Below, piece by piece: positions 39,191 to 59,413 of a DNA stretch of 60,240 nt. Under the pieces are notes generated by a model. That model was not told the origin of the DNA, did not search any database, and worked only from the letters and a program-made list of their open reading frames with translations. Both the position numbers and the translations under genes were made by a program. Source of the stretch: an uncultured Micrococcales bacterium (lineage in GTDB: Bacteria; Actinomycetota; Actinomycetes; Actinomycetales; Microbacteriaceae); assembly GCA_903880095.1 (NCBI GenBank), contig CAIRNX010000042.1, positions 1-60,240 on the forward strand. The letters run 5' to 3'. Within the stretch, counting starts at the first letter, position 1. Every line of letters begins with the position of its first letter.

Positions 39191-39277
39191 CATGCGAAAC
39201 CAGTTGGCGAGTAGTGATCGGACATTGAAGAATCCACTCACACTCGGTTTCTCTAGAGCCATAGAGACTGACATCAT

Positions 39278-39389
39278 GTTCGTAGGCCTCTGCGAAGTAA
39301 GAGAGACCCCCAATCACCGCATGGGAGTTACTGACGGCACCAACCTCGTAAACGCCCACGCGAACAAGCTGCCTGAGCTTTTCGCCTAG
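39278..39389 (+). pseudogene. Truncated, degenerate second copy of the purL 3' end
   Basis: The frame reads FVGLCEVRETPNHRMGVTDG then TNLVNAHANKLPELFA and a stop, against [20 protein letters not shown] ... [14 protein letters not shown] in PurL. About 14 codons in the middle are missing. The same reading frame as purL is kept, and an ATG at 39192 would give a 65-residue product whose first 27 residues are unrelated to PurL. There is no sign that it is expressed. The region 39141-39526 otherwise holds only the inverted repeat at 39145-39190 and about 140 bases with no feature I can name. Confidence 0.8.
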
Positions 39390-39526
39390 AAACCTTTTGA
39401 TCCATAGTTCTAGTCCCGGGTTCTAGCTGCTTGGCTGCCCTTGGATACTAAGCTCTCTGGGCCTACTTTGAGACTAAATATCGATGACCACCGTCACAAA
39501 GGGACTGACTAATTCACTGACTTGAT

Positions 39527-41144: not shown

Positions 41145-42230
41145 CTAGACCTTTATCATTTGCACTACGTGTTCTTGTTTATTTTTACTTTGAAAACTGT
41201 GGTTGAAAAGTTTGCTCTTTCCACTCATAGAGGTGGAATCTAGAATCTCGGCTTCGAATCCAATGTCCATGGCGATGCGAATTGTCATTTCGCCACCATC
41301 AACAAGTTCGCCTGCAATTTGACTGTCACCAATGACATAAATCGCTACGCCGCCCACTTTAAGTTTTGCATGGACATTTTCTAGGGCGCTCTTATAGTCT
41401 TCGTCCCATTTTTGTTTTGGTGCCTTTTTGGATGAGAACTCATAACGAGAACCAATTTCCGAACCTTGAGCTGCCTTGAAATCGAACCCCAACACATTCA
41501 TTCGCTGCTTATGGTAAAGGTAGTAGTCCATCGTGTTGGCATATGGCGGAGAAGTGATTACTCTGTCGATGCTTCCGAGCGGGATAGAGTCATCGGTCCT
41601 GATATCACCAAGCACTATTTGACGCGTTACCCCCTCAGCAAATGTCCCTCTCGCCTGCAGGCCCTTGGATAGTGTTTCCAACTTTGCGGCAAATGCTGAA
41701 GCAATGTCGATAGGGTCTGGGGTGCGTTCAACGCGAGCATACCGAGTCTCAGTGTCTTGATTGGAGAACCTATTTACGATGGACGACAAAGCCACTGCTG
41801 AAATATTCCACAGGTCAGACTCTCGTCCAAATCTATCTATCTCATTCCTGAGGTAGCCGAACGCTAACTGGGCTCCTGGTGAAAACCAATGATCGAGGCC
41901 ATGAAAGCTATCTAATTTAGAATCAGATTGGCCTTTCCACCCCCGAACCTGTGCAACCAAAGAGCTTAAAGTTGCTAGATTCTCGTCAGTTATAGGTGCT
42001 AACTTTGCTCGGGAAATCAGAACAGCAATTGGATTGACATCGATTCCAACCACGGAATTTCCGAGCATTGCTGATTCCAAAAGTGTTGTTCCACTGCCGC
42101 AGAATGGATCGAGTACCGATAGCCCTGATTCGTCTAAGTGCTCCCTGACAATTGAGCTAGGAAACTTACATGGGTAAGGATGAATCGAATGTAATTGCTT
42201 GTCGATTGCAATGATGTCTCTTTCGATCAT
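41145..42230 (-). CDS. DNA methyltransferase (TSPPY type), second of the pair
   Basis: A 361-residue amino-methyltransferase. The SAM-binding motif VLDPFCGSGTTLLESAMLG is at about 39-57 with GIDVNPIAVLISRAKL behind it, and the catalytic VITSPPYANTMDYYLYH is near 224. SPPY enzymes make N4-methylcytosine or N6-methyladenine; the base cannot be chosen from sequence. Order (SAM motif first, SPPY later) is as in the upstream enzyme, yet the two are only distantly alike. The start overlaps the previous gene by 4 bases (ATGA). Confidence 0.9.
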   Translation of the reverse strand: MIERDIIAIDKQLHSIHPYPCKFPSSIVREHLDESGLSVLDPFCGSGTTLLESAMLGNSVVGIDVNPIAVLISRAKLAPITDENLATLSSLVAQVRGWKGQSDSKLDSFHGLDHWFSPGAQLAFGYLRNEIDRFGRESDLWNISAVALSSIVNRFSNQDTETRYARVERTPDPIDIASAFAAKLETLSKGLQARGTFAEGVTRQIVLGDIRTDDSIPLGSIDRVITSPPYANTMDYYLYHKQRMNVLGFDFKAAQGSEIGSRYEFSSKKAPKQKWDEDYKSALENVHAKLKVGGVAIYVIGDSQIAGELVDGGEMTIRIAMDIGFEAEILDSTSMSGKSKLFNHSFQSKNKQEHVVQMIKV

Positions 42231-43117
42231 TTCTTCTTCCTCAGAACAACCAAGAAAGAGCAGTTTTGATTCGTATAAAACCTAGTGGGGAATCCCAATA
42301 AAACTAGCCGGCGTTGGGCATTCTGATCCCAAACGATAAGGTCGTGCCAAAGCCAGCCTGCGTCTTGTGCAGCCTTGGCCAAGTCGCTGTGCATAGAAAT
42401 ATAGGGGCGGTCTGGAGGAAGACGATAGTCCTTGACGACCCAGACTGCATAACCGTCGGGCTTCGTTACTTCGAACAAGGTGGCAAATAGATCTCTGCTC
42501 TCATCCAAGAACAAGTCATAGTCCAAATTCCCAAAATCACTCTCGTGTTCAGAGTACTGCTTGACGACACTTTTGTTTTCGAGAACGATTCGACTTTTCT
42601 TGTGAGTTTTTTCTCTATCAGCAATGCTCCGCTGGATGAAATTTGCGTAAGGCGGTGAGGTGACGGTTAGCGCCACCGAACCTGGCTCTAAATACTTTGA
42701 CATGTTCCGACAATCATCGTGGTGAACGAGAGCGCTTCCGGAACTTGTAATCAGTTCGCTATCGATTTCGGTTAGCCACTCGTTGGTCATTTCGACAAAC
42801 CTAGGGTTTAGCTCGATGCCAACACCGTTACGACCTAGTCTCTTGGAGGCAAGAATTGTCGTACCGATACCATTGAATGGGTCGAAGACTATGTCGCCCG
42901 GTGCTGAGTACATCTTTACAAGGCGATCTGCCAACTTCAGGGGAAATACGGCACCATGTTCCTTATGCCTAGCCTGGCGAGGAGATGACAAATCTGACCA
43001 GACATTCGTGCTCAGGCTTGCCCACTCGGTAGCTGTAAGTCCGTTGAATCCCAGGCGTTTCGGCTTTGACGCTGGCTCGGTATTCTCCTGGTTTACAGTC
43101 ACTTTGCGAAATTCCAT
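42227..43117 (-). CDS. DNA methyltransferase (TSPPY type), first of the pair
   Basis: A 296-residue amino-methyltransferase. IVFDPFNGIGTTILASKRLG at about 76-95 binds SAM with GIELNPRFVEMTNEW behind it; VTSPPYANFIQRSIAD near 153 is the catalytic motif. FPLKLADRLVKMYSAPGD before the SAM site is the usual motif X region. Together with the second enzyme it may protect the two halves of an asymmetric site or both strands. It begins the minus-strand unit and is divergent from the DISARM-like operon; the 254-base gap to the next gene shows no clear C-protein gene or operator. Confidence 0.9.
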   Translation of the reverse strand: MEFRKVTVNQENTEPASKPKRLGFNGLTATEWASLSTNVWSDLSSPRQARHKEHGAVFPLKLADRLVKMYSAPGDIVFDPFNGIGTTILASKRLGRNGVGIELNPRFVEMTNEWLTEIDSELITSSGSALVHHDDCRNMSKYLEPGSVALTVTSPPYANFIQRSIADREKTHKKSRIVLENKSVVKQYSEHESDFGNLDYDLFLDESRDLFATLFEVTKPDGYAVWVVKDYRLPPDRPYISMHSDLAKAAQDAGWLWHDLIVWDQNAQRRLVLLGFPTRFYTNQNCSFLVVLRKKK

Positions 43118-43569: not shown

Positions 43570-43717
43570 TTTTGCTCGTCCTTATGGATGAGCTGTTAAG
43601 TAGTTGTTCTTCATTTATTTCAAAGTAGCTGAAGGTGGCTTATTTTTATTCGTCGCCCGATCAAGAGAATGTCGGCGTACGAAGGTATTCTTGGGGTAAC
43701 CCATGGGGAGGTTAGAC

Positions 43718-44764
43718 GTGGAATACCTGGTGAAGTTAGACAAAGATGCCGAGTGGGGGCGATTTGATCCGTGGTTCGACTCTTTTGTCGACTTAGGTTT
43801 CAAGCTATATAACGCTAGAAAAATGGGTCATGTTTATAAAAAAGTAGCTATCGGCGTCCCTAAAAGTCCTTTCGTCGCTTTAGCCATGGCTATCGGTTTC
43901 AGTCGTGCTGCTTATAAAGAGGGAACGGACTTCTCTAAGGAAGTCTCTCTCGATGATGTAAAGGTTGGCGAAGTAATTGCCTTCAGAGGTGCGTGGAGTC
44001 AGCCAGAGCCAGGGGTTAGCCGACTACCAAGAAGTAGCGTCGGTTTAGTTTCCGCAATCAAGTCTGGATCTGGAAACTTAACTGAGATTCACTTCACTTT
44101 CGACACCGGGGCGGTTGCTGAGAAACGTAATTTCAACAAAGCATTATCAGCCGACGACCGCACGAAACTTCCGCGGCTCTTTTCGGTCCCTTTAGGAACA
44201 CCGCAGCGACCGGAGCAAACCAGGAAGAGCAGAGAAGTAGTTGATGACTCGCCAAGGACTCGTGAAAATAAGGAGTTCTTTGAAAGTTGGGACTATCAGA
44301 TTTGCCCGACCCTAGTTATTTTCGGGCCAACGGGACGGCTTGATGACTACAAGAAGCCTCTTGTTAGAGACGAAGAGATTCACGGCAAGCTAATGATCGA
44401 GTCAGACTCCCTATTCAATCTCGCTCGCCTGGACAGGTTGAGTAATGATGTAAATCCACACTTCGTCAATGCCGTGGAGCAGATTTCTCAATTTCCAACT
44501 AATGGGTCCCCCGCCTTTGAGTCCTTGAAAAGATTCCCATTTGTTTGTCTCGATGGGAATGATGCGATATTGAACCTTTCAGAGAAAAGAATTTTCCAAG
44601 ACAAGACCCTGATCGCCCTTTGGGAAGCAACAGGCAACCAGCATCAAGATGTTGCATTGAGAACATTCGCTAAAGCTGCTAGCCAAAACACGCCCGTGCC
44701 GGATTTTGCTGGGGCTTTGGGTTGGACGCCACCAGCGGGCGTACAGATTTGGGGGTGGAGATAA
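43718..44764 (+). CDS. First gene of the DISARM-like operon, unknown protein (possible DrmE N-terminal half)
   Basis: A 348-residue soluble protein that I cannot assign with confidence. Near residue 43 it has VAIGVPKSPFVALAMAIGFS, then a strand-rich region (GEVIAFRGAW near 93, LTEIHFTFDTGAVAEK near 127) and a C-terminal half with YQICPTLVIFGP near 197. No nuclease or ATPase motif is visible. The GTG at 43718 is chosen because GGAGG lies 6 bases before it; an ATG at 43703 overlaps that site. The stop shares a base with the start of the next gene (TAATG). Together the two proteins are about 850 residues; a split DrmE is one possible reading, inferred from size, order and neighbours. Confidence 0.6.
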   Translation: MEYLVKLDKDAEWGRFDPWFDSFVDLGFKLYNARKMGHVYKKVAIGVPKSPFVALAMAIGFSRAAYKEGTDFSKEVSLDDVKVGEVIAFRGAWSQPEPGVSRLPRSSVGLVSAIKSGSGNLTEIHFTFDTGAVAEKRNFNKALSADDRTKLPRLFSVPLGTPQRPEQTRKSREVVDDSPRTRENKEFFESWDYQICPTLVIFGPTGRLDDYKKPLVRDEEIHGKLMIESDSLFNLARLDRLSNDVNPHFVNAVEQISQFPTNGSPAFESLKRFPFVCLDGNDAILNLSEKRIFQDKTLIALWEATGNQHQDVALRTFAKAASQNTPVPDFAGALGWTPPAGVQIWGWR

Positions 44765-46281
44765 TGACAATTAGTTCACCAGACCTAGCATTCAGGAACC
44801 TCTCTGAGGTTTGGTCTGCTGGAATTACTCTTCAAACTTTCGAAGATGAAAGTCGGGCAGTTGCTTTCGAGCTGACCAATAAATTGCTCGGTGCAGTTAC
44901 CGGGAAGGACCTTGAAGGTCTCGAAACCACATTGAAATACATTTACTGGGATCTCCGCGGCCATATTCCTAACCCTGAACGCCCAGAAGCGGGCTGGTTT
45001 GCTCGCCGAGTTTCGCTTCAAAATGAACTTGGTATAAACGTCCAAGTCCTTTCAACTGAAGAGCTGGGGGCAGGAAAAGAACTGATCTTGAGACTGAACG
45101 CCCTTGCCGAAAAGGATTCGGTGTACTCGGAGCAGATCCTAAACCTGCTCGAGCGTGAGCCAGAAACCGTCTTCATTGTTGAAAAACCAAGACAACGTGC
45201 AGAAGTCGATGCGCTTTTGGTTGCGAGCACAGCCGAGCCCAGCTACCAGGTATTTAACCTAGGCAGATTTGTATCATTTCCTCCCACAGAGTTCAAGCAA
45301 GTTGTCGTTTTGGCTGCGCCTAGGAAGATATCTGACAACTTCATGCGAGCAATAACGCTTGGTGGCATAGCGGGTAAGTTCAGCTTCTTGGCCCCTAACT
45401 GGTTAATCGGCAACGAACCAAGCACCATCCGGCAAGAACTGGCGCCAACCTTAAAAGTTGCGCCTTTACCTAAGGTCCATGTTGTCGGTCCCCAATTTGA
45501 CAGGCCTGTAACTGAAGTTCCCGTAGAGACAGTTGAATTGAAGGACTACACGAACCCGGCTGACATTGAAAAGCTCATGACGGTCGGTGACATTGATTGC
45601 CGCTATGTTCACCTGAATGAAGGTTTGGTTATCCCGGTCGAAGACGATGCCGCGCGAATCAGCATTCTTGAACGCCAAGACGACGGACTCCTAAAGGTGG
45701 AATTTCGAGACCCTTTCGATGGATTAGCGGTCGGCGATGTTGTTTTCAATCTTCGCGATGGCGCGGAAGATGATTTCTTGATGGACTTGGCCGTTATGGC
45801 CATGGGCCAAGAATTCCGATCCTTTGCGAGCGGGCGACTGCTTTGGAAGTCGCGGGCACATAACATGATTGAAGCCCACGGCTACGATCAAGCCGTATCG
45901 AAATTGAAAGCCGGTGGGGTGAGCACAGCTCATTACTTGAAGGACTGGCTCGACGATGACGACTTCGTAAGCCCCCGAGCGAAGTCCGACTGGGCCAATC
46001 TATTGAAAGCCCTTGAATTCACGATCGTAGAAGTTAAGAGCTTGACAAACCTAAGCTCTAAATTGCGCTCGCACCTCATTTCAATTGGCCAGAGCGCCAG
46101 ATCTGCCATGGCCGACTCAATCGATGCCTCAGAGTGGGACCTAATTCGCGAAGGCAAAGTGGTGTCTAAGAAACTTGCCGAGTATGGTGATGCTGAATTC
46201 TTGCTTTCGACGGTAACTGACATCGGAGATGCGACAGTCAAGTGTCACCCAAATGATTTACGCAAAGTCAGGAGACTTTAG
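44764..46281 (+). CDS. Second gene of the DISARM-like operon, DrmE-C-terminal-like protein
   Basis: A 505-residue soluble protein. Near residues 315-365 it has GLAVGDVVFNLRDGAEDDFL, MAMGQEF and SGRLLWKSRAHNMIE, which recalls the pattern GD-V-R ... hydrophobic helix ... W-K found at the end of DrmE-type proteins of DISARM class 2. The middle has FKQVVVLAAPRKISDNFMRA near 181, like a Rossmann strand-helix unit. No catalytic motif is evident. TAATG overlap with the gene before and AGGAG before the gene after show that the five genes form one operon. The family link is inference. Confidence 0.6.
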   Translation: MTISSPDLAFRNLSEVWSAGITLQTFEDESRAVAFELTNKLLGAVTGKDLEGLETTLKYIYWDLRGHIPNPERPEAGWFARRVSLQNELGINVQVLSTEELGAGKELILRLNALAEKDSVYSEQILNLLEREPETVFIVEKPRQRAEVDALLVASTAEPSYQVFNLGRFVSFPPTEFKQVVVLAAPRKISDNFMRAITLGGIAGKFSFLAPNWLIGNEPSTIRQELAPTLKVAPLPKVHVVGPQFDRPVTEVPVETVELKDYTNPADIEKLMTVGDIDCRYVHLNEGLVIPVEDDAARISILERQDDGLLKVEFRDPFDGLAVGDVVFNLRDGAEDDFLMDLAVMAMGQEFRSFASGRLLWKSRAHNMIEAHGYDQAVSKLKAGGVSTAHYLKDWLDDDDFVSPRAKSDWANLLKALEFTIVEVKSLTNLSSKLRSHLISIGQSARSAMADSIDASEWDLIREGKVVSKKLAEYGDAEFLLSTVTDIGDATVKCHPNDLRKVRRL

Positions 46282-46283
46282 TC

Positions 46284-47957
46284 ATGGTCAGGATGCGCCC
46301 ACCAATCATCGCGTCGGACTCACCCCCCGGCGAAAAGTTACTTTTCCAAAAGTTTGAAGAGTTACAAGGTGCCGAAAACTGGATTGTGCTTCATTCGCTC
46401 GATATATTCGGCGACATACCCAATGGACAGGGTGAGGCAGACTTTGTCCTACTTGTCCCAGGTCAAGGAGTGCTCGTAATTGAAGTCAAGTCACACACCA
46501 AAATCAAAGCAAAAGGTGGTGTCTGGACCCTTGGTAACGACAAGCCTTCCAACCGTGGGCCAGTAAGGCAAGCATGGAATGCGGCTCATGCAATAAGAAA
46601 TTATCTACAAAATCAAAAAGTGGACATTTACGATGTCCCGATCGCCGCATGCGTTTGGTTTACAAACGCAAACAATGAAGATGTTGAGCCATCGATCCAG
46701 TGGGAGAACTGGATGCTCTTATATGCAAAAGACATGCCTAAGCCACTGCACAAAACTATTGAGGGAGTTTTTGCCGGGGCGATTTCAACCTTCGAAAAGG
46801 GGAAGCTACGCTTTTCATCTCAGCGGGCACCCGTCCAGAAACTTGAGGCCATTGCAAAAGCACTTAGGCCCGAAATCGTGATCGAGAAAACGGCAGAAAT
46901 GCGCGTAGCCGAAATAGCGGGATGGGCCAAATCAGCGGTTGAGCAACAGCTAGACATTGTCGAAGCTATCCGCGGTTTAACCAAACCTTTTCTTCTTCAA
47001 GGCATCGCCGGAACTGGAAAAACGCACATCGCCATACACGAAGCCAAGCAGGCCCACATGCGAGGCGAGCGAACACTCCTCACCTGTTACAACTCACTTC
47101 TAGCGGAGTACTTGAAATCAGAACTATCTGGCTACGCCAGAGTTGAAGTGAAACACTTCCATAAGTTCATGACTGACTTGGTGGGCACTGAAAACATTCC
47201 AGAAGATGACCGAGCCTGGTGGAGCGAGACTTTGCCAAAATTGGCTATCGAAAAGTTGGTCGAACTGCCACTTTCTGAAAGATATGACACATTGATTGTC
47301 GACGAGGCCCAAGATTTGGGGCTAGCAACTTACTTAGAAGTTATGGACTTCTCCCTTGAAAAGGGGCTCGAGAATTCCTATGTGTTGTTCACAGGAGATT
47401 TCCAACATCAAGGGATCTACCTAGATGGGTCTGCCGCCCTTGGAAATTACAGGACCTCCATCAAGAATTTGAGTGTTCTAAATCCGCTGTCAAAAAACTG
47501 CAGGAACACAAAGGCGCTTGGTGACCAGGTGATGGACTACATTGGTGAACCAAACGCGTACAGCGGGTACCTAAGAAAAGATGAAGGCCTGCCCCCAAGC
47601 CCTGGCATTGCCCAAAATAACGCGGAAATCTCTTCAATCTTGTTTAGCGAACTGGATCGACTAACCAAGCTTTATAAGAGCGAAAATATAGTCGTCCTAA
47701 GTTCAAACAAGACGATGCTTGAACAGGTCTTAGCTTCAAAAAACGTCGCGCGCACTGAACTGGGAAAGCCTGCTACCGGGAAAATACGCTGGGGCTCGGT
47801 TCAATCCTTCAAGGGACTTGAAGCTTTAGCTGTGCTCTTGGTTGAGTTTGAACCTGGGTACGGAGCTTCTAAAGAAACCTTCTATGTGGCAGCTACAAGA
47901 ACCCTTTCAGAGTTTGTATTTGTGTATCCATCCAGCCTTTTAGCCAAAGTCTTCTAA
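46284..47957 (+). CDS. NERD-domain nuclease fused to a UvrD/Rep-type (SF1) helicase
   Basis: A 557-residue protein. Residues about 12-115 form a NERD domain: GEKLLFQKFEEL, then GEADFVLLVPGQGVLVIEVKSH with the D...E-x-K nuclease residues. The ATPase begins FLLQGIAGTGKTHIAIHEAK near 236 (Walker A), has DTLIVDEAQDLG near 335 (Walker B), YVLFTGDFQHQGIY near 366, and the last motif ETFYVAATRTLSEFVFVY near 530. Such NERD-helicase proteins are common in phage-defence islands and probably process foreign DNA. Start ATG with AGGAG 9 bases before it. It lies between the DrmE-like gene and the DrmA-like gene, which is not the standard DISARM order. Confidence 0.88.
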   Translation: MVRMRPPIIASDSPPGEKLLFQKFEELQGAENWIVLHSLDIFGDIPNGQGEADFVLLVPGQGVLVIEVKSHTKIKAKGGVWTLGNDKPSNRGPVRQAWNAAHAIRNYLQNQKVDIYDVPIAACVWFTNANNEDVEPSIQWENWMLLYAKDMPKPLHKTIEGVFAGAISTFEKGKLRFSSQRAPVQKLEAIAKALRPEIVIEKTAEMRVAEIAGWAKSAVEQQLDIVEAIRGLTKPFLLQGIAGTGKTHIAIHEAKQAHMRGERTLLTCYNSLLAEYLKSELSGYARVEVKHFHKFMTDLVGTENIPEDDRAWWSETLPKLAIEKLVELPLSERYDTLIVDEAQDLGLATYLEVMDFSLEKGLENSYVLFTGDFQHQGIYLDGSAALGNYRTSIKNLSVLNPLSKNCRNTKALGDQVMDYIGEPNAYSGYLRKDEGLPPSPGIAQNNAEISSILFSELDRLTKLYKSENIVVLSSNKTMLEQVLASKNVARTELGKPATGKIRWGSVQSFKGLEALAVLLVEFEPGYGASKETFYVAATRTLSEFVFVYPSSLLAKVF

Positions 47958-47966
47958 GGAGCGATT

Positions 47967-50900
47967 GTGGTAAATGTTGCACGTGAAAAGGTAGTCGACT
48001 ACCTAATAAATGAGATTTGGGGGCCTGTCCTTGCTACCTCCGATGTTGACGCCATTGAACTTCCCACTCCTGGACCTGACGGTTCGTTCGAGATACCGGG
48101 CGATGGTAACTTGCCGAAAATATTGGACAAGGCTTCTGGTGATCTAATCGTCACTGGCGCTGCGCCAAAGATGTTTTACGGCACTGGTGTTTTGCACGCT
48201 CAAGAAGCGTGGGACGCGCCGGAGGCAAAAGAGTCGAATGATGCCGGGGACGAAGTTATTACTCCGGACCCGGATGACGCTCCCGACGTAGTTGTGGATA
48301 ACCATTTTGGTGGTGGCGATGACGAAGAACAGGACTCGATTTCACTGGATCAAAGCCAAAAAAGGAAACCAAGTGCAATGGGTTTCACGAGTGAGCTAGT
48401 GCTTGCAGACGGCGATGCTTTGCACATCCAATTTGATGGGGCTATTTACGACGAAATCAAACTCAAGTTTGACGGCAGAACATTACAGGGGTGGCGCCGC
48501 AAGGCATTTTCTCTAACTGGAAATTTAGTCTGGGAGCCCACAAAAGTTGAGCTGAACAGCTTGACCCCCGTCGTGCTAACGGGCGATCACGCAGAGTTGG
48601 TTTCTGCGAAAATTCGATTCCGCAAGGCTGCGATCGGCGCAGATTCTGGAGTCGGTCTTATTGCAACTCTCGTCGTCAAGAACCAAACGCTGGACCCACA
48701 TGAGGTCGACATTTTCCAATCAACTCTCAAAATGAGTCTGGTCGGGGACGGGTACATAAGAAGTTCAAAACACTCGGATAGTGCAGATGTCGAACAGCGA
48801 GAGCTCGACCATCTTTACCGCCACACCTCAAATTACGCAGTGGGTCACGGTACCTCTGTGAATTGGCCTCAGGTAGCGCCGGGTGAGAAATTAAAGGAAA
48901 TCAAAACCACTTCGCTGCCGATTTTTTACCAAGAGGTACTGGATTTTGAAGGCGCCCCAACAGCATCAATGGACAAATTGGCGGCGGCTTCTCAGGCTGA
49001 ACTTGCAGAAGCGCTAAACCCAATCATTGTCGAATTTGAACGGTGGATATCAAACGAGCAATCCGTTTCTTTGGCCAACGGTGGAGACGCCGAAGTGACC
49101 GAAAGATTGGCCAGCCGTGCAACTCACATCTTGGACCGAATCAAAAAGGGCTTTGACCTTTTGGTTCACGACGAACAGGTGTTCGAGGCGTTCATCCTTG
49201 CTAACAAAGCCATGTTCGAACAGCAAAAGAATGGTCGTCGCCCCTTGCGTGAGTGGGCGCGCGACTCAAAGAAGAGCTATTTGGCCGCTGAACCATTCAA
49301 ACTAGTGCCTTCAACCGAACCAACCGGCAAGTTTGGCCGATGGAGACCTTTTCAGCTAGCGTTTCTCCTTGCTGCACTTCCGGGCTTAGTAGATCCGCAA
49401 GATGAGTCCCGGGAAGAAGTTGACCTCATTTTCTTTCCTACAGGTGGAGGCAAAACAGAAGCCTATCTAGGGGCAAGCGCTCTTTCGATAATTCTTCAAA
49501 GGTTACGCGGCGGGAAAGATACCGATTACGGCGTCAACGTTTTGATGCGTTACACACTTCGGCTACTGACTATTCAGCAGTTTGAACGAAGCTCGGGATT
49601 GATCTGTGTGTTGGAACAAATGCGCCAATCCATGCCAGAAAGATTGGGGCAGACGCCGATTTCTATTGGCGTATGGCTCGGAAACAAAACAACACCAAAC
49701 TGGAGAGAGAAAGCCCTCGAGCAACTCAAGGACATCAAGAACAGAAAGGCCGACGACCCCAATCCATTTGTTCTGAATCGCTGCCCCATCTGCGCCGCTG
49801 AATTTGGTTGGGATGGCAAATATTGGCGCGGCTACGAGGCTGTGCCAAAGAAAGGTAAAGATTCAACTCTTCGATTTGTCTGCCCGGACTTTAACTGTCA
49901 CTTTGGAGATCCAGACAACGCTTTGCCGATTTGGATTACCGACGAGGACGTGTACATTCAAAGGCCAACTTTTGTTCTCGGAACGGTCGATAAGTTTGCC
50001 CAAATGGCTTGGCAAGAAAGAGCTCGAAAGTTGTTCGGAATCGGGCCGGATGGATCTCGAGTTTCCGATCCACCAGCTCTAGTAATTCAAGACGAGCTCC
50101 ACCTAATTTCGGGACCGCTCGGCTCTATGGTTGGCCTTTACGAACCTGTTATTGAGGAGTTGTGCACAGATCGACGCACGCCCACGCCAATTAGGCCAAA
50201 GATTATCGCGTCTACGGCAACAACCCGTAAATATGAGTCGCAAATCAAAACCCTTTACGGCCGTGACAAAGTCATGTTGTTCCCGCAAGCGATTTCTCGC
50301 GCAAATGAATCCTTCTTCTCCAAAGTTCTATACGAAGCGGATGGGTTCACCAAGAAAAAAGGAAGCCTTTACCTTGGCGTCAATCCCGCAACTTACATGA
50401 ACGGCCAACTCTCGGCAGCTCGAGTTGCAGCTATTCTCAAGCAGGCCCCAAACATGGAGCCGGATCCAAATAATCAGGACATGGACTATTACAGAACATC
50501 ACTATGGTTCTTCAATAGCCTTCGTGAACTAGGAATGACACTCACGTTGATGCAATCAACGGTGAGAGACCTTATCGCCGGTATGAGAGTGGCAAATCGA
50601 CTACCGGCCCCAAAGGCGAGCTATCCGCACAAAATATTGGAGCTTACGAGTCGAATCGACTCAAATAAGGTGTCGAGTTCGCTCGCTGCTCTTGCACGAC
50701 CCAGTTGGGATCCAAAGTCTTTCGACACCTGCCTAGCCTCGAGCATTATGGAGGTGGGCGTGGATGTTCCTCGTTTGGGGCTTTTGACGATCATGTCGCA
50801 ACCAAAAACGACTTCCCAGTACATTCAGGTTTCTGGTCGCGTTGGGCGATCTGGAGATGCCGGGCCTGGCCTCGTTGTGATGCTCTACAACACAACAAGA

Positions 50901-51416
50901 GCGCGTGATCGAAGCATTTATGAGAGGTTTCAGCCTCACCACGAAACCCTTTACGCACAGGTCGAACCGATTAGCCTGACTCCATTCGCTATACAGGCGC
51001 TTAATCACGGTCTAAAAGGCGCGCTAATTTCACAGTATCGAATGACCAGCATTTTGGATTCAAAACCAAATGCAGCAGATTGGGGCAAATTTGATGACGC
51101 CGTAGCTGTCCTTAGGGGTCGTCTTGTGCACCTAGGTGGAGATGGACAGAATCTTAAGGACTTCGACCTACTTTGCCAGCGGCTAAGGAATTACTGGGGA
51201 ATTTACAACCCGACCGAATGGGATTACAGCTATAAAGAAGAAAACATCGGTCCTGATGAGGACTCGGTTCCAGCACTAATGAGAAAGCGCAGAGAACCTA
51301 TGGACCAAATTCCAAACGATAAGAGTTTCATGGTTCCGACATCAATGCGAAATGTTGATGGGCAAACGCGGCTCGAAATTATGAATCCGTACGCTTTTGA
51401 GGAACAGGAAGACTAA
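47967..51416 (+). CDS. drmA: DrmA-like DISARM helicase
   Basis: A 1149-residue SF2-type helicase. Walker A is FFPTGGGKTEAYLGAS near 488; the Walker B box is QDELHLISGPLGSM near 706 (DELH); motif III is ASTATTRKYESQ near 746; motif V is SSIMEVGVDVPRLGLL near 928; motif VI is QVSGRVGRSGDAGPG near 953. Between A and B lies a Cys cluster CPICAAEFGW ... CPDFNCHF (about 603-643) that may hold zinc. An acidic stretch (PDPDDAPDVVV) precedes residue 120. This layout, followed directly by a DUF1998 gene, is that of DrmA/DrmB. GTG start with AAGGAG 5 bases before it. The stop shares a base with the drmB start. Confidence 0.85.
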   Translation: MVNVAREKVVDYLINEIWGPVLATSDVDAIELPTPGPDGSFEIPGDGNLPKILDKASGDLIVTGAAPKMFYGTGVLHAQEAWDAPEAKESNDAGDEVITPDPDDAPDVVVDNHFGGGDDEEQDSISLDQSQKRKPSAMGFTSELVLADGDALHIQFDGAIYDEIKLKFDGRTLQGWRRKAFSLTGNLVWEPTKVELNSLTPVVLTGDHAELVSAKIRFRKAAIGADSGVGLIATLVVKNQTLDPHEVDIFQSTLKMSLVGDGYIRSSKHSDSADVEQRELDHLYRHTSNYAVGHGTSVNWPQVAPGEKLKEIKTTSLPIFYQEVLDFEGAPTASMDKLAAASQAELAEALNPIIVEFERWISNEQSVSLANGGDAEVTERLASRATHILDRIKKGFDLLVHDEQVFEAFILANKAMFEQQKNGRRPLREWARDSKKSYLAAEPFKLVPSTEPTGKFGRWRPFQLAFLLAALPGLVDPQDESREEVDLIFFPTGGGKTEAYLGASALSIILQRLRGGKDTDYGVNVLMRYTLRLLTIQQFERSSGLICVLEQMRQSMPERLGQTPISIGVWLGNKTTPNWREKALEQLKDIKNRKADDPNPFVLNRCPICAAEFGWDGKYWRGYEAVPKKGKDSTLRFVCPDFNCHFGDPDNALPIWITDEDVYIQRPTFVLGTVDKFAQMAWQERARKLFGIGPDGSRVSDPPALVIQDELHLISGPLGSMVGLYEPVIEELCTDRRTPTPIRPKIIASTATTRKYESQIKTLYGRDKVMLFPQAISRANESFFSKVLYEADGFTKKKGSLYLGVNPATYMNGQLSAARVAAILKQAPNMEPDPNNQDMDYYRTSLWFFNSLRELGMTLTLMQSTVRDLIAGMRVANRLPAPKASYPHKILELTSRIDSNKVSSSLAALARPSWDPKSFDTCLASSIMEVGVDVPRLGLLTIMSQPKTTSQYIQVSGRVGRSGDAGPGLVVMLYNTTRARDRSIYERFQPHHETLYAQVEPISLTPFAIQALNHGLKGALISQYRMTSILDSKPNAADWGKFDDAVAVLRGRLVHLGGDGQNLKDFDLLCQRLRNYWGIYNPTEWDYSYKEENIGPDEDSVPALMRKRREPMDQIPNDKSFMVPTSMRNVDGQTRLEIMNPYAFEEQED

Positions 51417-53287
51417 TGGCAACAAACGAGATTCGACAGTCGAGCGTAATCCAAGGCTCGGGGCCTGGCTCGCTAACAGTGCTTCAAGAAGGTATGTCAG
51501 TGATGATCTCCGGACTCGATGCCTGGTACAAGCTGCCGGTTACCATTCCAGCCTCGAAAGACGACGGGCTAGCACAACTTATCTACAAAACGGACATCCC
51601 AAAAAAGTGCAGACTAAGCGACCCCAAACTTGAAAACACCTTGCAGGTTGAGTTCTTCGCTGTACCACCAGCCGTGGGGGTCGATTCTGAAGCCAAACAC
51701 AGTGAGGCAATACCAGTGACGGTCTTTCCTTGCTGGACTATCTGCTACAACTGCCGTGCGCTTGAAAAAATAGAATCAGTCGAACAACTCCTTCCGAACT
51801 GCAAGTACTGTGCCTCAGTCGGAAACAAAAAGAGAAAAGTAGTTCAAACAAATTTCGTTATTGCTTGCGAGAACGGGCATATCGATGAATTTCCTTGGCG
51901 CATGTGGGTGCATAAAGGTGAGCGCCTTGAATGCAAAGACTCACGCCTTGAGATGTACACGGCTGGATCGGGAGATCTGAAGGGTCAAAAGGTCGTCTGC
52001 ACGAAGTGCAATTCGTCACGGAATTTAGCTAACACGAACTCTGCTGAGGAAGGTTCTACTTATCTAAGTAAGAACCTCTACGGCGGTAAGGACCACCTGT
52101 TTACTTGCACTGGGCGAAAACCGTGGCTTGAAGAATCGGATTCCTGCGATTTGCAAGTGCGAATGGTTCTGCGGAGTGCCTCGAACCTCTACTACACGAA
52201 CCAATACAGTTCCATATTTGTACCCATTCAGACGGAACCTGAGAGCCCTATTGACGAGGTTATCGACCAAAAGAGCATTCAGCTCCGGACCAAGCTGCTG
52301 ATTCCATACGCGTATAACTATGGTGCATTCGCAAATTATCTGAAGTTCGAGGACCCTGATTTTGGCGGCTTTGATGTTTCCGAAATCGAGGCTCGATTAC
52401 GGGCTCGACTCCCGCAAGCAGGTGGGGCGGTTTCAACCCCTGAAGACCAGATCAAGTCCTCGATAAAAAATCCAGAGTGGGAGGCTCTAAACCGAATTCA
52501 AGAAAATGAAAGTTTGAGAGTTCGAGACGTTGGCTACGCGCAAAGCATCGCTGGGGTTGACACAATCCACGCCGTGCCAACTTTAGTAAAGACAACGGCC
52601 CTCGCCGGATTCAGCAGACTGCTTCCAAAGGCGCAATCCATAGGCGATTCGAAGTCGATGCTGCGACGTGCGACTAAGAACCCGAGAAAAGCGAACTGGT
52701 TGCCCGCTGTGCAATATGTTGGTGAAGGCATTTTCATCAAGCTAGATGACGAGAAACTTGCCGGATGGGAAGCCCAGCTCGCGGTCAAACAACGCGTTGC
52801 CAAGATCAAAGCAAACCTAGAACGCTTCGGCCGTGAAAATCCAGATGAGCCAACCACCGCGAGAAGAGTGCTTTTACACACGTTGGCACACGTTCTCATT
52901 CAAGAGCTGGTCCTTGAATGTGGATACATTGCCGCGTCGCTGTCGGAGCGCATCTATTCAGACGAAAAATCTGCAGGAATTCTGATCTACACGTCTTCAC
53001 CTGATGCCGATGGAACAATGGGCGGTTTAGTTGAAATGGCCAGACCTGATGCCTTGGAAAAAGTATTTTCTAATGCGATAGAAAAAGCAATGTGGTGCTC
53101 GAATGATCCGGTCTGTATGGAGTTGGGTAAAGAAGGTCAAGGCAACCTCGGGACTAACCTGGCCGCTTGCCATAACTGCTGCCTATTGCCAGAAACAGCT
53201 TGCGACCACTTCAATCAAGCATTGGACCGTGCACTTCTGGTCGGTGACACAACAGACCCGTCCGCCTTTTTTGGTTACTTCAACTAG
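51416..53287 (+). CDS. drmB: DrmB-like DUF1998 protein
   Basis: A 623-residue protein. N-terminal zinc-like pairs are CWTICYNC ... CKYC (about 104-132) and a further CTKC near 195. The C-terminal third is DUF1998: HTLAHVLIQELVLECGY near 486, YTSSPDADGTMGGLVEMAR near 525, CSNDPVCMELG near 561 and AACHNCCLLPETACDHFNQA near 582. In DISARM, DrmA and DrmB form the DNA-binding and translocating core that acts on phage DNA. The ATG shares its A with the drmA stop (TAATG). No DrmC phospholipase D gene follows; the next gene on the other strand is of another type. It is the last gene of the operon. Confidence 0.88.
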   Translation: MATNEIRQSSVIQGSGPGSLTVLQEGMSVMISGLDAWYKLPVTIPASKDDGLAQLIYKTDIPKKCRLSDPKLENTLQVEFFAVPPAVGVDSEAKHSEAIPVTVFPCWTICYNCRALEKIESVEQLLPNCKYCASVGNKKRKVVQTNFVIACENGHIDEFPWRMWVHKGERLECKDSRLEMYTAGSGDLKGQKVVCTKCNSSRNLANTNSAEEGSTYLSKNLYGGKDHLFTCTGRKPWLEESDSCDLQVRMVLRSASNLYYTNQYSSIFVPIQTEPESPIDEVIDQKSIQLRTKLLIPYAYNYGAFANYLKFEDPDFGGFDVSEIEARLRARLPQAGGAVSTPEDQIKSSIKNPEWEALNRIQENESLRVRDVGYAQSIAGVDTIHAVPTLVKTTALAGFSRLLPKAQSIGDSKSMLRRATKNPRKANWLPAVQYVGEGIFIKLDDEKLAGWEAQLAVKQRVAKIKANLERFGRENPDEPTTARRVLLHTLAHVLIQELVLECGYIAASLSERIYSDEKSAGILIYTSSPDADGTMGGLVEMARPDALEKVFSNAIEKAMWCSNDPVCMELGKEGQGNLGTNLAACHNCCLLPETACDHFNQALDRALLVGDTTDPSAFFGYFN

Positions 53288-53406: not shown

Positions 53407-54999
53407 TCAAATGAGCGAATTCAGCCAATCTCTGAGCAACTTCGTCGACAGGCAGTCATCTCGGTTGTAGGAGCTGATTACCTGCAGTAGGCGTGTGGTT
53501 TCTGTTTCGTCGCCTTGGGCTTTGGCTTTTGCGGCGAGGTCGAAATAGAGAAGGGCTTGGTCGCCACCGGCTACAAGGCCTTTGCGGTTTAGTTTGGTGT
53601 CGGCGTCGTAATAGTGCTCGAGCTGCTTGATTGAGTAGCCGCCGGCTCCTGGGCGAACGCGAGACATCGCGATGTCTCGAAGGTCGATCATTCGTGAGAC
53701 AAGAAACTCGACTTCTTCACTAAACGTTTCATAACGTTCGGCGAGCGCTTTTAGATACCTGGGTTCGGGGTTGTAGTAGTGATAAATGTGGGCACCTTGC
53801 GAGAGCTTCATCCGCTCAGTTGCAAAGAGCACGAACTTCTCGAAAAGGTGCCTCTCGGTTGTGAGGTCGAGGCTTTCAAAAACCGTGAAGTCTTCGTTGG
53901 CATCAACTGCACCAAACATGAACACGGCATCACCAGGTGCGTTGACTTCGGTAAACCATTCGATGTCAAAGAATAGGTCGTTCGAGTCGGGGGTTGGCAA
54001 AGGTAGCCAATTGGCTTCGTCAAGGATCTCAACCTGTGGTTTGCCAGTGGCGCGCTCGGCTTCGATTACCTTTGCCCAAGCTCGGTGTTCAGCAATCTTC
54101 TCTTTCGAGAGTTTGCCAACCTCAAGATCACCTTCGGTAGTAGCAAGTTGGTGAAGGGTCGTGAACCCGGCTGCTTCGTAGTCTTTTAGGTTTCTGAAAT
54201 TGTAGAGCTGGCTAAGTGGGTCTTCGGCCAAGATGCCGATCTTGCAATGCTTTGGGTAAGGGCAATGAAGTTCTTTGCACACACCCGTGGTTTCACAGTG
54301 CATTGAGGTTACCTTCGCAAATGTCATCTCAGCCGGCGAAATAGAGTCGAGAGTTTTGAACAGAGCCACGCGGGCAGAGTCGAGCGCGGCCAAACCATCG
54401 GCTTGAGGGTGACGAGCTGTGATGCCACGGACGCCGATGATTCCGAGATCAAGTTCCGACGCCAAGCCGTGCTCGGCGAGGACCTCCGCATAGGATGCAA
54501 CTTGGATCCAGTAGTAGTCCTTGAAGGTCTTTGAGCACTTGACGTCCCAGACAACATATTTGGGCGACGAGGTGGTTCTGTCGGACTTGACGACTTCGAT
54601 CTTGCCTTCGGCCGTGCCACGCACGTCGTAGTCCTCGCGAATTAGGAGGTCGGCATAGCCAGACCAGAGGTGGCCGTTGCTCCAGCTCTCAAAGAAGCCC
54701 TGAGCCACAACCGGCACACCGACGTTTAGTTTCTCGAGAGTTTCTGCCATGGTGGGTCGATCTAACTCAACGAAGTCGTCCCCCAGGTCTTGCTTGAGCC
54801 ATTCGAAGACCATGGCTTCGTACTCGATGCCTTGAATCACCGGCAACACCTGGGTGAGGTCCTCTTTGTATTTCTCGTCGATGGCTAGAGCCTCGGGGAC
54901 CTTCGCTGCCACCGACATCTCGAGGGTTGTGCAATGGGAGCAGGCGACCTTGAAAAGATCGCGGCTCGCGTAACGCCAGGCTGAGTTGGAAACCTTCAA
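53407..54999 (-). CDS. TM0106-family RecB-like/RNase H-like putative nuclease
   Basis: A 530-residue protein with two nuclease parts. The first (about 55-200) is a RecB/Cas4-type PD-(D/E)XK domain: GYADLLIRED and VVWDVKCSKTFKDYYWIQVA. Cysteines at C-K-E-L-H-C-PYPKHC near 245-255 may bind metal, and a helix-hairpin region follows. The second (about 345-530) is RNase H/exonuclease-like: FFDIEWFTEV, HIYHYYNPEP, and SYNRDDCLSTKLL at the end. This order is that of the TM0106 family found in actinobacterial cores, so it is not counted with the DISARM-like operon. It lies tail to tail with drmB with 119 bases between. Confidence 0.88.
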   Translation of the reverse strand: MKVSNSAWRYASRDLFKVACSHCTTLEMSVAAKVPEALAIDEKYKEDLTQVLPVIQGIEYEAMVFEWLKQDLGDDFVELDRPTMAETLEKLNVGVPVVAQGFFESWSNGHLWSGYADLLIREDYDVRGTAEGKIEVVKSDRTTSSPKYVVWDVKCSKTFKDYYWIQVASYAEVLAEHGLASELDLGIIGVRGITARHPQADGLAALDSARVALFKTLDSISPAEMTFAKVTSMHCETTGVCKELHCPYPKHCKIGILAEDPLSQLYNFRNLKDYEAAGFTTLHQLATTEGDLEVGKLSKEKIAEHRAWAKVIEAERATGKPQVEILDEANWLPLPTPDSNDLFFDIEWFTEVNAPGDAVFMFGAVDANEDFTVFESLDLTTERHLFEKFVLFATERMKLSQGAHIYHYYNPEPRYLKALAERYETFSEEVEFLVSRMIDLRDIAMSRVRPGAGGYSIKQLEHYYDADTKLNRKGLVAGGDQALLYFDLAAKAKAQGDETETTRLLQVISSYNRDDCLSTKLLRDWLNSLI

Positions 55000-55052: not shown

Positions 55053-55643
55053 CTAAAGTTGAACTCCATTGGAATTTCTCGTGATCCTAATGGAAGCTAG
55101 GTGCTGCCCTGGCATCGCGAAAATCAATGCCTCGGTGTTGTTCTCGTAGCGTTTTAGACGGCCGAGCTTCTTCATGGCGTCGACTTTGGTTGCTGAGGCT
55201 TTGTCGGCGAAGGCAATGAAGTCAGTCAGCTGCATTCCGAATACGCCAACAAGGGTAGTCACGATGAATTCGGCGATCTCGCTCGGGTCGGATTTGGTGA
55301 TGTAGCTGCGACTAAAGTCTGGTCGACCTACAGGTTCTTCGCTCTCGTTCCAGTCTTCAGGTTCGATGTCGGGCTTGGTCCACCCATAGAACTCAAGGGT
55401 TTCAACCATCTGTTCGCTAATCTGGGGCCGGAGGTAGAGGTTGCCGGTTAGTTCTAGAACGAACTTGCCCGGTTCGTCGAAGACCGCATCAAACTGGGGA
55501 GAAGTAACGCTGTTGTTGCCATAGTACAGAAGGCAAGTTCGCAGGCAAAAGGTGCCTCCTTTGGCATAGTCTTCGAGCAGTTTGACGATGACATGGCCGA
55601 GTGGCTCCCAATCGGGGCCGAGTAACGGGTTGTCGCTAATCAA
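55053..55643 (-). CDS. TY-Chap/YbjN-like hypothetical protein
   Basis: A 196-residue acidic cytosolic protein. ELTGNLYLRPQISEQMVETL, then LEFYGWTKPDIEPEDWNESE, RPDFSRSY, and DPSEIAEFIVTTLVGVFGMQ give the pattern of TY-Chap-type domains (L-GW-P ... NF-R ... A-x2-V-x2-TL) that are chaperone-like and often accompany ESX/T7-type AAA ATPases. The next two genes on the other strand include such an ATPase. The assignment is by motif memory and is moderate. The role is unknown; it may bind a partner protein. Confidence 0.65.
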   Translation of the reverse strand: MISDNPLLGPDWEPLGHVIVKLLEDYAKGGTFCLRTCLLYYGNNSVTSPQFDAVFDEPGKFVLELTGNLYLRPQISEQMVETLEFYGWTKPDIEPEDWNESEEPVGRPDFSRSYITKSDPSEIAEFIVTTLVGVFGMQLTDFIAFADKASATKVDAMKKLGRLKRYENNTEALIFAMPGQHLASIRITRNSNGVQL

Positions 55644-55799
55644 AAAATCCCCTTCGTGTTAGTTTTGTCAGCCTCGATGATCGAGCGAGAAAGGCGCACC
55701 ATTTGGCTTGCTTCGGGTCCTAACCTAAAGCTACCCGCCGACCTTTTATCGCCTGATTGCAGGCATACTTAACGGAGGTTGATTGCAAGAGGGGTTTCA

Positions 55800-56786
55800 A
55801 TGTTTACCGAGCAGTTCTGCGCGAACGGCGAATTTACTTACGCGGGCGGCAAGCAATATCAGGGCCAATTTTTTGTGGTTTCAGCCAGTCGCGAAGAGGC
55901 AATTTGTATCATCGCCGATCACAAGGTTTTCAACTACGAAGCGGCGGTTTGGTTTAATTTCGAAATTGAGAGCGCTCGAGGAAACCTTTTTGGCATGAGT
56001 CAAGATCTTTCTACCGAGCTGGACGCCATGCCGCTTGCCCACTACAGCCCTGAAGACACGATTTTCTTTGTTAGCCCAGACCTCAAAGTCATTCACTTGC
56101 CTGATCCACGGTCGATCTATGGACGAGGAGGGGCACAGCGATGGCGCCTTCTTGACACCAAGTGCGAATATTTCAGCAAGGTGCGAGAACTAAAGAGAAT
56201 TTACCGAAACGTTTTAGAGCAGTATCCTTCGATTCGAGCTCTAGATGTGCCGCCCCGGGGTGGTTTGCCTAAGCGAGTGAATTTGGCGTCCATGCCTCCG
56301 GGTTTCGACATGGAAAAGGTTCCTAGCCAGGTGGAAACCACGTTCAGAATGCCCAAAGGAATGCGCGACGACGAGTTGGCTATGGCTGCGTTTGTCGCGT
56401 GCTTCTTTGAAGAAATGCGGTCCGCTCGGGTTTATGAGGGTTTTGTTGGTCAATTCCCCTACCCAAACTTGGAGATAGTTCAAGCCGAGGTTGACTTTAG
56501 GATTTCGAACAAGTTCACCTTTTGGCCTGACCTTTACCCAATGGACCAGCTCGGAAAAAACGAAATTGATCGCAGAGCAAAGAGGGCACTAAAAACGCTT
56601 CAGAGTTTCGAGCAGTTTGGTCACGACCATCAAGCAATCGGCGAAGCGGTTCGACGACTTAACGACGACGAGATCTGCGAAGCTCTGCTAGCAGCATATT
56701 TTTCGATGAATAACGGTCATTTCTTCGAGTCAGTCAAGCCCCTTATGATCGAAGCTTCACAGCGCATTCGAGGCTCAAGATGGTAG
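55800..56786 (+). CDS. Unknown protein, partner gene of a tandem AAA ATPase
   Basis: A 328-residue soluble protein without a family I recognise. The first 150 residues are strand-rich (YQGQFFVVSASREEAICIIA near 18); the last 150 are helical (MRDDELAMAAFVACFFEEMR near 191, then RRAKRALKTLQSFEQF near 262). A short conserved-looking loop, RSIYGRGGAQRWRLLDTKCE, lies near 103-122. The ATG at 55800 has AGAGGGG before it; a TTG at 55779 is less likely. Its last 7 bases overlap the AAA ATPase gene (ATGGTAG), so the two products should be made together and may interact. Confidence 0.7.
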   Translation: MFTEQFCANGEFTYAGGKQYQGQFFVVSASREEAICIIADHKVFNYEAAVWFNFEIESARGNLFGMSQDLSTELDAMPLAHYSPEDTIFFVSPDLKVIHLPDPRSIYGRGGAQRWRLLDTKCEYFSKVRELKRIYRNVLEQYPSIRALDVPPRGGLPKRVNLASMPPGFDMEKVPSQVETTFRMPKGMRDDELAMAAFVACFFEEMRSARVYEGFVGQFPYPNLEIVQAEVDFRISNKFTFWPDLYPMDQLGKNEIDRRAKRALKTLQSFEQFGHDHQAIGEAVRRLNDDEICEALLAAYFSMNNGHFFESVKPLMIEASQRIRGSRW

Positions 56787-58909: not shown

Positions 58910-58911
58910 GT

Positions 58912-59409
58912 CTAGACAGCCACCTTTTCGCGCCAAAAGTCGACGTCGGCTCGGCTGGTGAGCCAGCGAACGAAGGTGTTGTTGCAGAGCGCGATGTCGC
59001 CGCGGGTGGCGCGAATCAGCTCTACGGCTTCGTGCGGTGTGTAGCCTTCGCGAATGAGAACGAGGGCCATCACTAGGCCAGAGCGGTTGAGCCCGGCCTG
59101 GCAACGAATGAGCACGCGCTTGCCGGCCTTCCAGTCGGCATGGGCTTCGCGAACAGCGAAGTAGAGGTCGCGCTCAGGGTCGAAATCGGTCATGTCGCCA
59201 TCGGCGAATCCGAAACGAATCTCTTTGACGTTCCAGCTCGCTGCGTTAGCTCTCGCAAAGAGGGTGTAGACGGCGTCGAAGTGATTGGTGGTGACGCGAT
59301 TCGGGCTGTGGCCGGGTGCGCCGATTACGTCGTAGTCGTCGGTGCCGCCCTGCCAAAGGCCTGGGAGCACTTCGCTCCAGAGAGCGTGTGGGTAGCGGTT
59401 CTGGTTCAT
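58912..59409 (-). CDS. Dual-specificity-type protein phosphatase
   Basis: A 165-residue cytosolic protein with the phosphatase loop IRCQAGLNRSGLVMALVLI near residue 102 (C-x5-R-S) and an upstream Asp-rich stretch FADGDMTDFDPERD near 68, which may give the general acid. The fold is that of small cysteine-based phosphatases; phosphotyrosine or phosphoserine substrates are both possible. It follows the deacetylase-family gene after 4 bases on the same strand. Confidence 0.87.
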   Translation of the reverse strand: MNQNRYPHALWSEVLPGLWQGGTDDYDVIGAPGHSPNRVTTNHFDAVYTLFARANAASWNVKEIRFGFADGDMTDFDPERDLYFAVREAHADWKAGKRVLIRCQAGLNRSGLVMALVLIREGYTPHEAVELIRATRGDIALCNNTFVRWLTSRADVDFWREKVAV

Positions 59410-59413
59410 GGGC

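Follow-up and report, generated by a model that had tools for sequence, protein, structure and literature searches.

A DISARM-family operon with a NERD-helicase before DrmA and a probable split DrmE in an uncultured Micrococcales bacterium

Introduction

Class 1 of the DISARM defence systems consists of DrmD, DrmMI, DrmA, DrmB and DrmC. Class 2, in the definition quoted from PADLOC, consists of DrmA, DrmB, DrmC, DrmE and DrmMII (PMC9252829). Here we analyse a stretch of 60,240 nucleotides (nt) from an uncultured Micrococcales bacterium (contig CAIRNX010000042.1, positions 1 to 60,240; "the window") that carries a five-gene operon encoding DrmA, DrmB, a NERD nuclease-helicase and two proteins that are most likely the halves of a split DrmE. 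We read this operon as an anti-phage DISARM-family system on a branch of its own, which would take its DNA methyltransferase from a neighbouring modification or restriction-modification (R-M) unit; for this reading, together with the working mechanism proposed below, we estimate a probability of roughly 0.6.

The DISARM cryo-EM paper (PMC9142583) calls the destruction of phage DNA by DISARM a mystery, because DrmC, the nuclease proposed so far, can be dispensed with and is absent from many systems; DISARM is reported to function without it. For the Serratia proteins the same paper reports that DrmAB binds 5'-overhang DNA and is held back by a trigger loop, that methylated DNA reduces the DrmAB ATPase activity, and that DrmC does not co-purify and is dispensable. 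The related system TALON combines an ARMADA-like YprA with a NERD nuclease, TPR-CSD and TBP, according to Bell et al. (PMC12458937), who also state that the DISARM-like clade contains many uncharacterised classes, so that others may have seen the one described here. In a search of the main texts in a collection of 5.39 million open papers we found no description of a NERD-type DISARM branch.

Results

Five coupled plus-strand genes span 43703-53287 in an analysis of open reading frames (ORFs; lengths in amino acids, aa):

43703..44764, plus strand: gene 1, 353 aa, probable DrmE N-terminal half
44764..46281, plus strand: gene 2, about 505 aa from the ATG at 44764, probable DrmE C-terminal half
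46284..47957, plus strand: gene 3, 557 aa, NERD nuclease domain plus SF1-type helicase
47967..51416, plus strand: gene 4, 1149 aa, DrmA, SF2 (YprA-family) helicase
51416..53287, plus strand: gene 5, 623 aa, DrmB (DUF1998/MZB)

Genes 1 and 2 overlap in a TAATG (44762-44766), as do genes 4 and 5 (51414-51418), and gaps of 2 and 9 nt separate gene 2 from gene 3 and gene 3 from gene 4, which is the coupling described in the original prediction, a reading of the bare sequence. The five coupled plus-strand genes of that prediction stand, but its start at 43718 is an in-frame GTG, and the ORF begins at 43703. For gene 2 the longest ORF runs from a TTG (44722-46281, 519 aa), and the ATG at 44764 is the likelier start. 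Promoter-like sites are at chance level (7, against 8.3 in shuffled sequences), and terminator-like sites lie slightly above it (16 against 12.3, standard deviation 3.3). That the operon is composed of a split DrmE, a NERD-helicase, DrmA and DrmB we regard as very likely.

The DrmA and DrmB calls hold in profile searches and against solved structures. Gene 4 matches NF038325 of NCBIfam with 751 bits and the PADLOC DrmA model with 638 bits, and aligns with the solved DrmA 7s9v_A at E 3.9e-116; since 751 bits lies under the 950-bit equivalog cut-off, we regard it as a divergent DrmA. Gene 5 passes the cut-off of NF038324 (426 bits against 240), matches PF09369 in Pfam, and aligns with the solved structure 7s9v_B at E 5.7e-69. 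Both proteins that define DISARM in the broad sense are present. DrmA has no match in the phage collection, and its matches in 85 plasmid records are each below 60% identity.

Gene 3 bears out the NERD-helicase predicted inside the operon: with 51.4 bits it passes the PF08378 (NERD) cut-off of 22.1, and helicase matches come after this domain. The top PADLOC model, RTasNERD-Hel, covers it nearly full length with 101 bits; a search against solved structures returned no match. Residues E17, E51, D53, E67 and K69, the presumed catalytic residues of the superfamily, form a PD-(D/E)xK-type set, and the Walker residues K246, D340 and E341 are present as well. Both sets are intact in all 41 readable copies from NERD-type loci, a 42nd being cut off. 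The NERD stop lies −14 to +21 nt from the nearest DrmA start at 37 of 37 plus-strand loci, where taking the nearest in-frame start biases the distance toward small gaps. The NERD-helicase and DrmA have diverged together, nearly as closely as DrmB and DrmA have: tree distances correlate with those of DrmA at a Spearman coefficient of 0.84 for the NERD-helicase (36 loci), 0.93 for DrmB (35 loci) and 0.38 for the C5 methyltransferase (31 loci), in a comparison that left out L116, L098, L114, L066, L129 and L032 (the last without good reason; L numbers denote loci). Each of the three values was reached in 0 of 2000 permutations.

NERD-helicases also occur in other positions. The window's own genome has a second one of the same family on contig C15 (L123, 5954-7714, minus strand), away from DrmAB in the stretch examined. 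A NERD-helicase-like gene follows DrmB at the DrmAB loci L110, L114, L116, L118, L071 and L088, and such genes stand on both sides at L098, L114 and L116.

The original prediction left the products of genes 1 and 2 in uncertain families, and searched singly in PADLOC, Pfam and NCBIfam they indeed match none; relatives and profiles correct this to a probable split DrmE. Upstream of the NERD gene, some related loci carry a pair of genes (products of roughly 300-370 and 420-560 aa) and others a single long protein, usually of about 800-930 aa, with some frames of 1090-1725 aa. Four of the five long forms tested score above the DrmE_C cut-off, and the one from L125 scores 223 bits with the full-length DrmE family (cut-off 80). 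With the class 2 DrmE equivalog (250 bits) the L125 protein reaches 41 bits and the L124 protein 975. Relatives of gene 2 pass the PF24957 cut-off in four of five Bacillus-group genomes, the L028 relative is barely over it (27.4 against 27), and 11 of 28 match NF038316 (DrmE_fam) at E up to 0.1; PF24957 has no match in the window's own genome at E up to 10.

In profile-profile comparisons, gene 2 (28 relatives) falls on the C-terminal half of DrmE-family proteins at 99.9% (E 2.7e-32) and gene 1 (32 relatives) on the N-terminal half at 91% (E 1.1e-6), or 84% with a gene 1 profile from an earlier set; the shallower alignments of the NERD-helicase (5 rows) and DrmA (3 rows), compared in the same way as controls, reached 0.1-0.2%. 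Gene 2 is thus assigned to DrmE because its relatives match DrmE models directly, gene 1 because of the profile comparison and its position only. Judged by these alignments, genes 1 and 2 most likely encode the two halves of DrmE, N-terminal and C-terminal respectively. DrmE marks class 2 DISARM, so the gene set overlaps with that class. None of the 32 relatives of gene 1 and none of the 28 relatives of gene 2 contains a strict Walker A pattern, which 1 of 12 long forms has; a looser pattern occurs in 1 of 28 gene 2 relatives. AlphaFold models have a mean pLDDT of 79.6 for gene 2 and 69.5 for gene 1. The match list of the gene 2 model contains helicase domains, with Dicer 7zpk at 0.98 and Hef 1wp9 at 0.99 probability and TM-scores near 0.25, so a helicase-like fold of gene 2 is a lead only; for gene 1 the list holds weak matches of mixed kinds, and among solved structures the gene 2 profile found nothing convincing.

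The arrangement recurs in other genomes. Apart from the window itself, a gene 2 search of 246 genomes of the phylum found a single weak match, at L003, where the order is C5 methyltransferase, gene 1, gene 2, NERD-helicase, DrmA, DrmB. In the family sample the DrmB model matches 8 of 199 genomes, with the five-gene order at two of the eight loci (the window and L018). A DrmA alignment of three rows was run against 84,980 species genomes, and the best 80 loci were kept; with the window, L003 and L012-L018 these make a set of 89, biased toward window-like DrmA, in which a NERD-helicase directly precedes DrmA at 34. Going by record titles, these 34 include Actinomycetota, Pseudomonadota, Desulfobacterota, Myxococcota, Acidobacteriota, Nitrospirota, Verrucomicrobiota, Bacteroidota, Chloroflexota, Bacillota and a Patescibacteria bin, many of the records being metagenome bins whose taxon may be misassigned.

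Two taxon samples were less biased. DrmB is over the cut-off in 24 of 396 Actinomycetota genomes (30 at E up to 0.001), and its 26 places make 25 loci because one gene is broken in two; at six of them the NERD gene directly precedes DrmA (the window, L003, L112, L114, L116 and L119), although L114 and L116 have no DrmE match and lie on another branch. The DrmE C-terminal domain occurs in 12 of 348 Bacilli genomes. Four of these loci (L125, L127, L129, L130) have an unsplit DrmE followed by NERD and DrmA, with DrmB and a C5 methyltransferase downstream in the three whose contig continues; two have DrmC (L124, L128), five have neither NERD nor DrmC (L037, L131-L134), and L126 ends at a contig edge. 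The order is also found in a second genome of the genus, described below. The proposal of a DISARM subtype, with the same order elsewhere, is borne out in that the arrangement recurs, mostly within one group of the DrmA tree.

The searches also turned up a second DISARM-like arrangement, at L015 (5056-16494) and also at L057, L059, L067, L079 and others. There a large protein (about 1550-1850 aa) and a UvrD/GajB-like helicase accompany DrmA and DrmB, and neither DrmE nor DrmC gives a match.

We used two DrmA trees, a quick one of 110 rows, which left out 10 loci, and a careful one of 54 rows, a hand-chosen subset plus L136 with midpoint rooting only. In the 54-row tree all rows with DrmE and NERD except L042 and L061 fall on one side of a 100/100 branch, which holds 28 rows, some of them without NERD; L042 and L061 join L052 nearby. 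In the 110-row tree these two lie inside a 50-row group (98) with the remaining NERD/DrmE rows. By these alignments most NERD/DrmE operons form one strongly supported group, a DISARM branch of its own. The split of DrmE is a single change on the 54-row tree, and the split rows are one group of 19 with support 100/100. The locus L124, which has DrmE and DrmC, clusters with class 1 loci and some unclassified ones (12 rows, 100/98); it is the sole well-identified class 2 locus in this tree, L128 having a very long branch in the 110-row tree.

Gene content was counted at 97 sufficiently complete DrmAB loci, after exclusion of the duplicates L113, L119 and L121 and the own-genome loci L122 and L123 (no DrmAB), and then of 23 of 120 that were too incomplete. 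At 35 of the 97 the NERD gene directly precedes DrmA. DrmC is present at 0 of these 35 against 22 of the other 62 (Fisher 1.9e-5) and DrmE at 32 of 35 against 14 of 62 (Fisher 2.0e-11), tests that ignore the relatedness of the loci in a sample biased toward window-like DrmA, which weakens their support for our reading; a C5 methyltransferase lies somewhere in the stretch examined at 31 of 35 against 24 of 62. Three labels need comment. The NERD gene of L019 lay 405 nt away, just beyond the 400-nt limit, owing to a DrmA frame at that locus that seems to be interrupted; L019 was relabelled in both trees. L049 was counted as split and is in fact one 926-aa frame, relabelled in the 54-row tree. 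The DrmE of L124 was missed by the profile and labelled by hand, its identity coming from the Bacilli sample and the 975-bit equivalog score. The predicted absence of DrmC from the window operon is confirmed, since the DrmC profile has no match there. The window's own genome (1.4 Mb, 42 contigs, 92% complete) has one PLDc_2 match, which looks unrelated; it scores 30.2 bits and lies on a different contig, in a frame of 705 aa.

A putative R-M set lies upstream of the operon:

42227..43117, minus strand: DNA methyltransferase (N6_N4_Mtase), divergent neighbour of the operon, PF01555 102 bits
41145..42230, minus strand: second DNA methyltransferase (N6_N4_Mtase), PF01555 57.7 bits
39527..41131, minus strand: putative type II restriction enzyme, PADLOC REase_II E 1.3e-20 over residues 2-259 only

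The putative restriction enzyme has no Pfam match. The methyltransferase at 42227..43117 is a possible source of the self mark, and both methyltransferases may be linked to the operon. A C5 methyltransferase is found in the stretch examined at 35 of 42 NERD-type loci; the only one in the window's own genome is a single PF00145 match on contig C36. G+C is 0.49 in the operon and 0.47 in the R-M set, against 0.56 in the left flank.

The purL gene gives a match in 9 of 13 genomes of the genus sample, and stretches from six were compared. In the second genus genome (L136, 3004-14903) the same five genes come directly after purL, and a D12 adenine methyltransferase and a type II restriction enzyme come next. 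Identity to the window is 82% for purL, 46% for DrmA, 46% for DrmB, 38% for the NERD-helicase, 28% for gene 1 and 25% for gene 2, and the two operons are sisters on the 54-row tree (100/100). These are two very different copies of the operon at one hotspot, each beside an R-M set; the difference may come from two arrivals or from fast divergence of an old resident. The purL 3' end itself looks like an insertion hotspot. In the window (34677-36953) a decayed copy of this end lies behind purL at 39265-39394, and L135 has two further copies (6909-7123 and 9493-9583). Such downstream copies are decayed or near-identical, with defence-type genes between or near them, including a type I restriction enzyme in L135. 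On the other side, the right flank (55053-60091) has no match in eight genus genomes and the right edge of the island is not fixed. A gene for a TM0106-family RecB-like nuclease with an RNase H-like domain (53407-54999, minus strand) lies convergent to DrmB.

Discussion

With class 2 DISARM the operon has DrmA and DrmB in common, together with what is probably a DrmE-family protein; most relatives also share a C5 methyltransferase. The operon differs in having no DrmC and no DrmMII in the locus, in the NERD-helicase before DrmA, in the branch of its DrmA and, in the window's lineage, in the probable splitting of DrmE. Its DrmA and DrmB are homologous to the solved Serratia pair, but neither DrmD nor DrmMI gives a profile match in the window, and class 1 is rejected on that ground. 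Like TALON it joins a YprA-family helicase and a NERD nuclease gene in one operon; unlike TALON it has DISARM-type DrmA and DrmB as separate genes and a NERD domain fused to an SF1 helicase, and with neither TPR-CSD nor TBP among the 20 window proteins scanned this assignment was rejected too. A DRT system, suggested by the RTasNERD-Hel model that ranks first for gene 3, was rejected since none of those 20 proteins matches a reverse transcriptase.

Gene content, gene order, recurrence, tree position and residues are established at the level of sequence. For the mechanism we propose, by homology with Serratia DrmAB, that DrmAB would load on phage DNA that is exposed, unmodified and either single-stranded or with a 5' overhang. 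The two DrmE halves might jointly act as an adaptor without a P-loop, and the NERD-SF1 protein as a motor nuclease that would unwind and cut the DNA, a role suggested by its intact active-site and helicase residues, its fixed position and its co-divergence with DrmA. Host DNA would be spared through methylation by the neighbouring unit, the self mark. Every step beyond DNA binding is one that we infer. A wider version, which we offer tentatively and rate somewhat below an even chance, is that these operons are a third major and old DISARM branch spread over many phyla, in which DrmAB passes DNA to the NERD motor nuclease through a DrmE adaptor that was later split, so that the effector missing from current models would lie in the operon itself, and in which the methyltransferase is exchangeable, even for a neighbouring type II R-M set.

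Several observations weigh against this picture. None of the 32 gene 1 relatives matches a DrmE model directly, gene 2 of the window itself matches none, and the AlphaFold models of both have no match in the Protein Data Bank (PDB) at E <0.001. The stretch searched in the window has no C5 methyltransferase (DrmMII). The active-site and Walker residues are also intact in three NERD-helicases away from DrmA, so their conservation argues that the NERD-helicase is probably functional in these operons and not that it is specialised for them. NERD presence changes at least seven times on the 54-row tree, which means repeated gain or loss of the gene. Together with the several group members that carry neither NERD nor DrmC, these changes show that NERD is not indispensable to the group. 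Among DrmE loci, moreover, DrmC is found at 0 of 32 with NERD against 1 of 14 without (p=0.30). Because this contrast is not significant, an exchange of DrmC for NERD is not established, and the suggestion in the original prediction that the NERD protein takes over the nuclease role of DrmC does not stand as a result.

The NERD-helicase could be an accessory module instead, acting for example against plasmids or conjugation or in clearing DNA ends, with phages blocked by DrmAB translocation alone and no stand-in for DrmC. The loci with DrmE, DrmA and DrmB and without NERD or DrmC (L031, L034, L036, L037, L048, L082, L131-L134) would fit this, as would the dispensability of DrmC in the tested DISARM, reported in PMC9142583; given that NERD-helicase distances track those of DrmA (0.84) and that the gene sits regularly before DrmA with short or overlapping junctions, we consider it unlikely, though it deserves serious attention. 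It is improbable that the operon is ordinary class 2 DISARM that lost drmC and has a NERD gene alongside: DrmA, DrmB, probably DrmE and mostly the C5 methyltransferase are common to both, but L124 groups with class 1 and other loci (100/98), outside the NERD/DrmE group, and the class 2 DrmE equivalog separates L125 (41 of 250 bits) from L124 (975).

Genes 1 and 2 might also be two separate specificity or regulatory proteins whose alignment to DrmE is fortuitous. Neither window protein matches a DrmE model and the gene 1 link depends on profile comparison, which favours this view, yet gene 2 relatives match DrmE models directly, gene 1 falls on the remaining half with the order preserved, the controls stay at 0.1-0.2% and the tree needs one change of state; we think such a coincidence quite improbable. 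A chance neighbourhood, with a housekeeping NERD-helicase beside DrmAB, we reject with near certainty. NERD-helicases are common, as the copy on contig C15 illustrates, but the order is repeated in many phyla, in two taxon samples and in the second genus genome, and the protein co-diverges with DrmA.

Going by gene content and conserved residues, a DISARM-family operon with its own helicase-nuclease remains our preferred reading, and the NERD-helicase is then a candidate for the nuclease at work in DISARM. With a recurring branch in which a helicase-nuclease with an intact site is fixed beside DrmA, the way in which DISARM destroys phage DNA becomes directly testable. The split-DrmE reading would name two gene families that have no NCBIfam annotation here, and the features of the branch may serve as a marker by which defence finders could recognise such operons.

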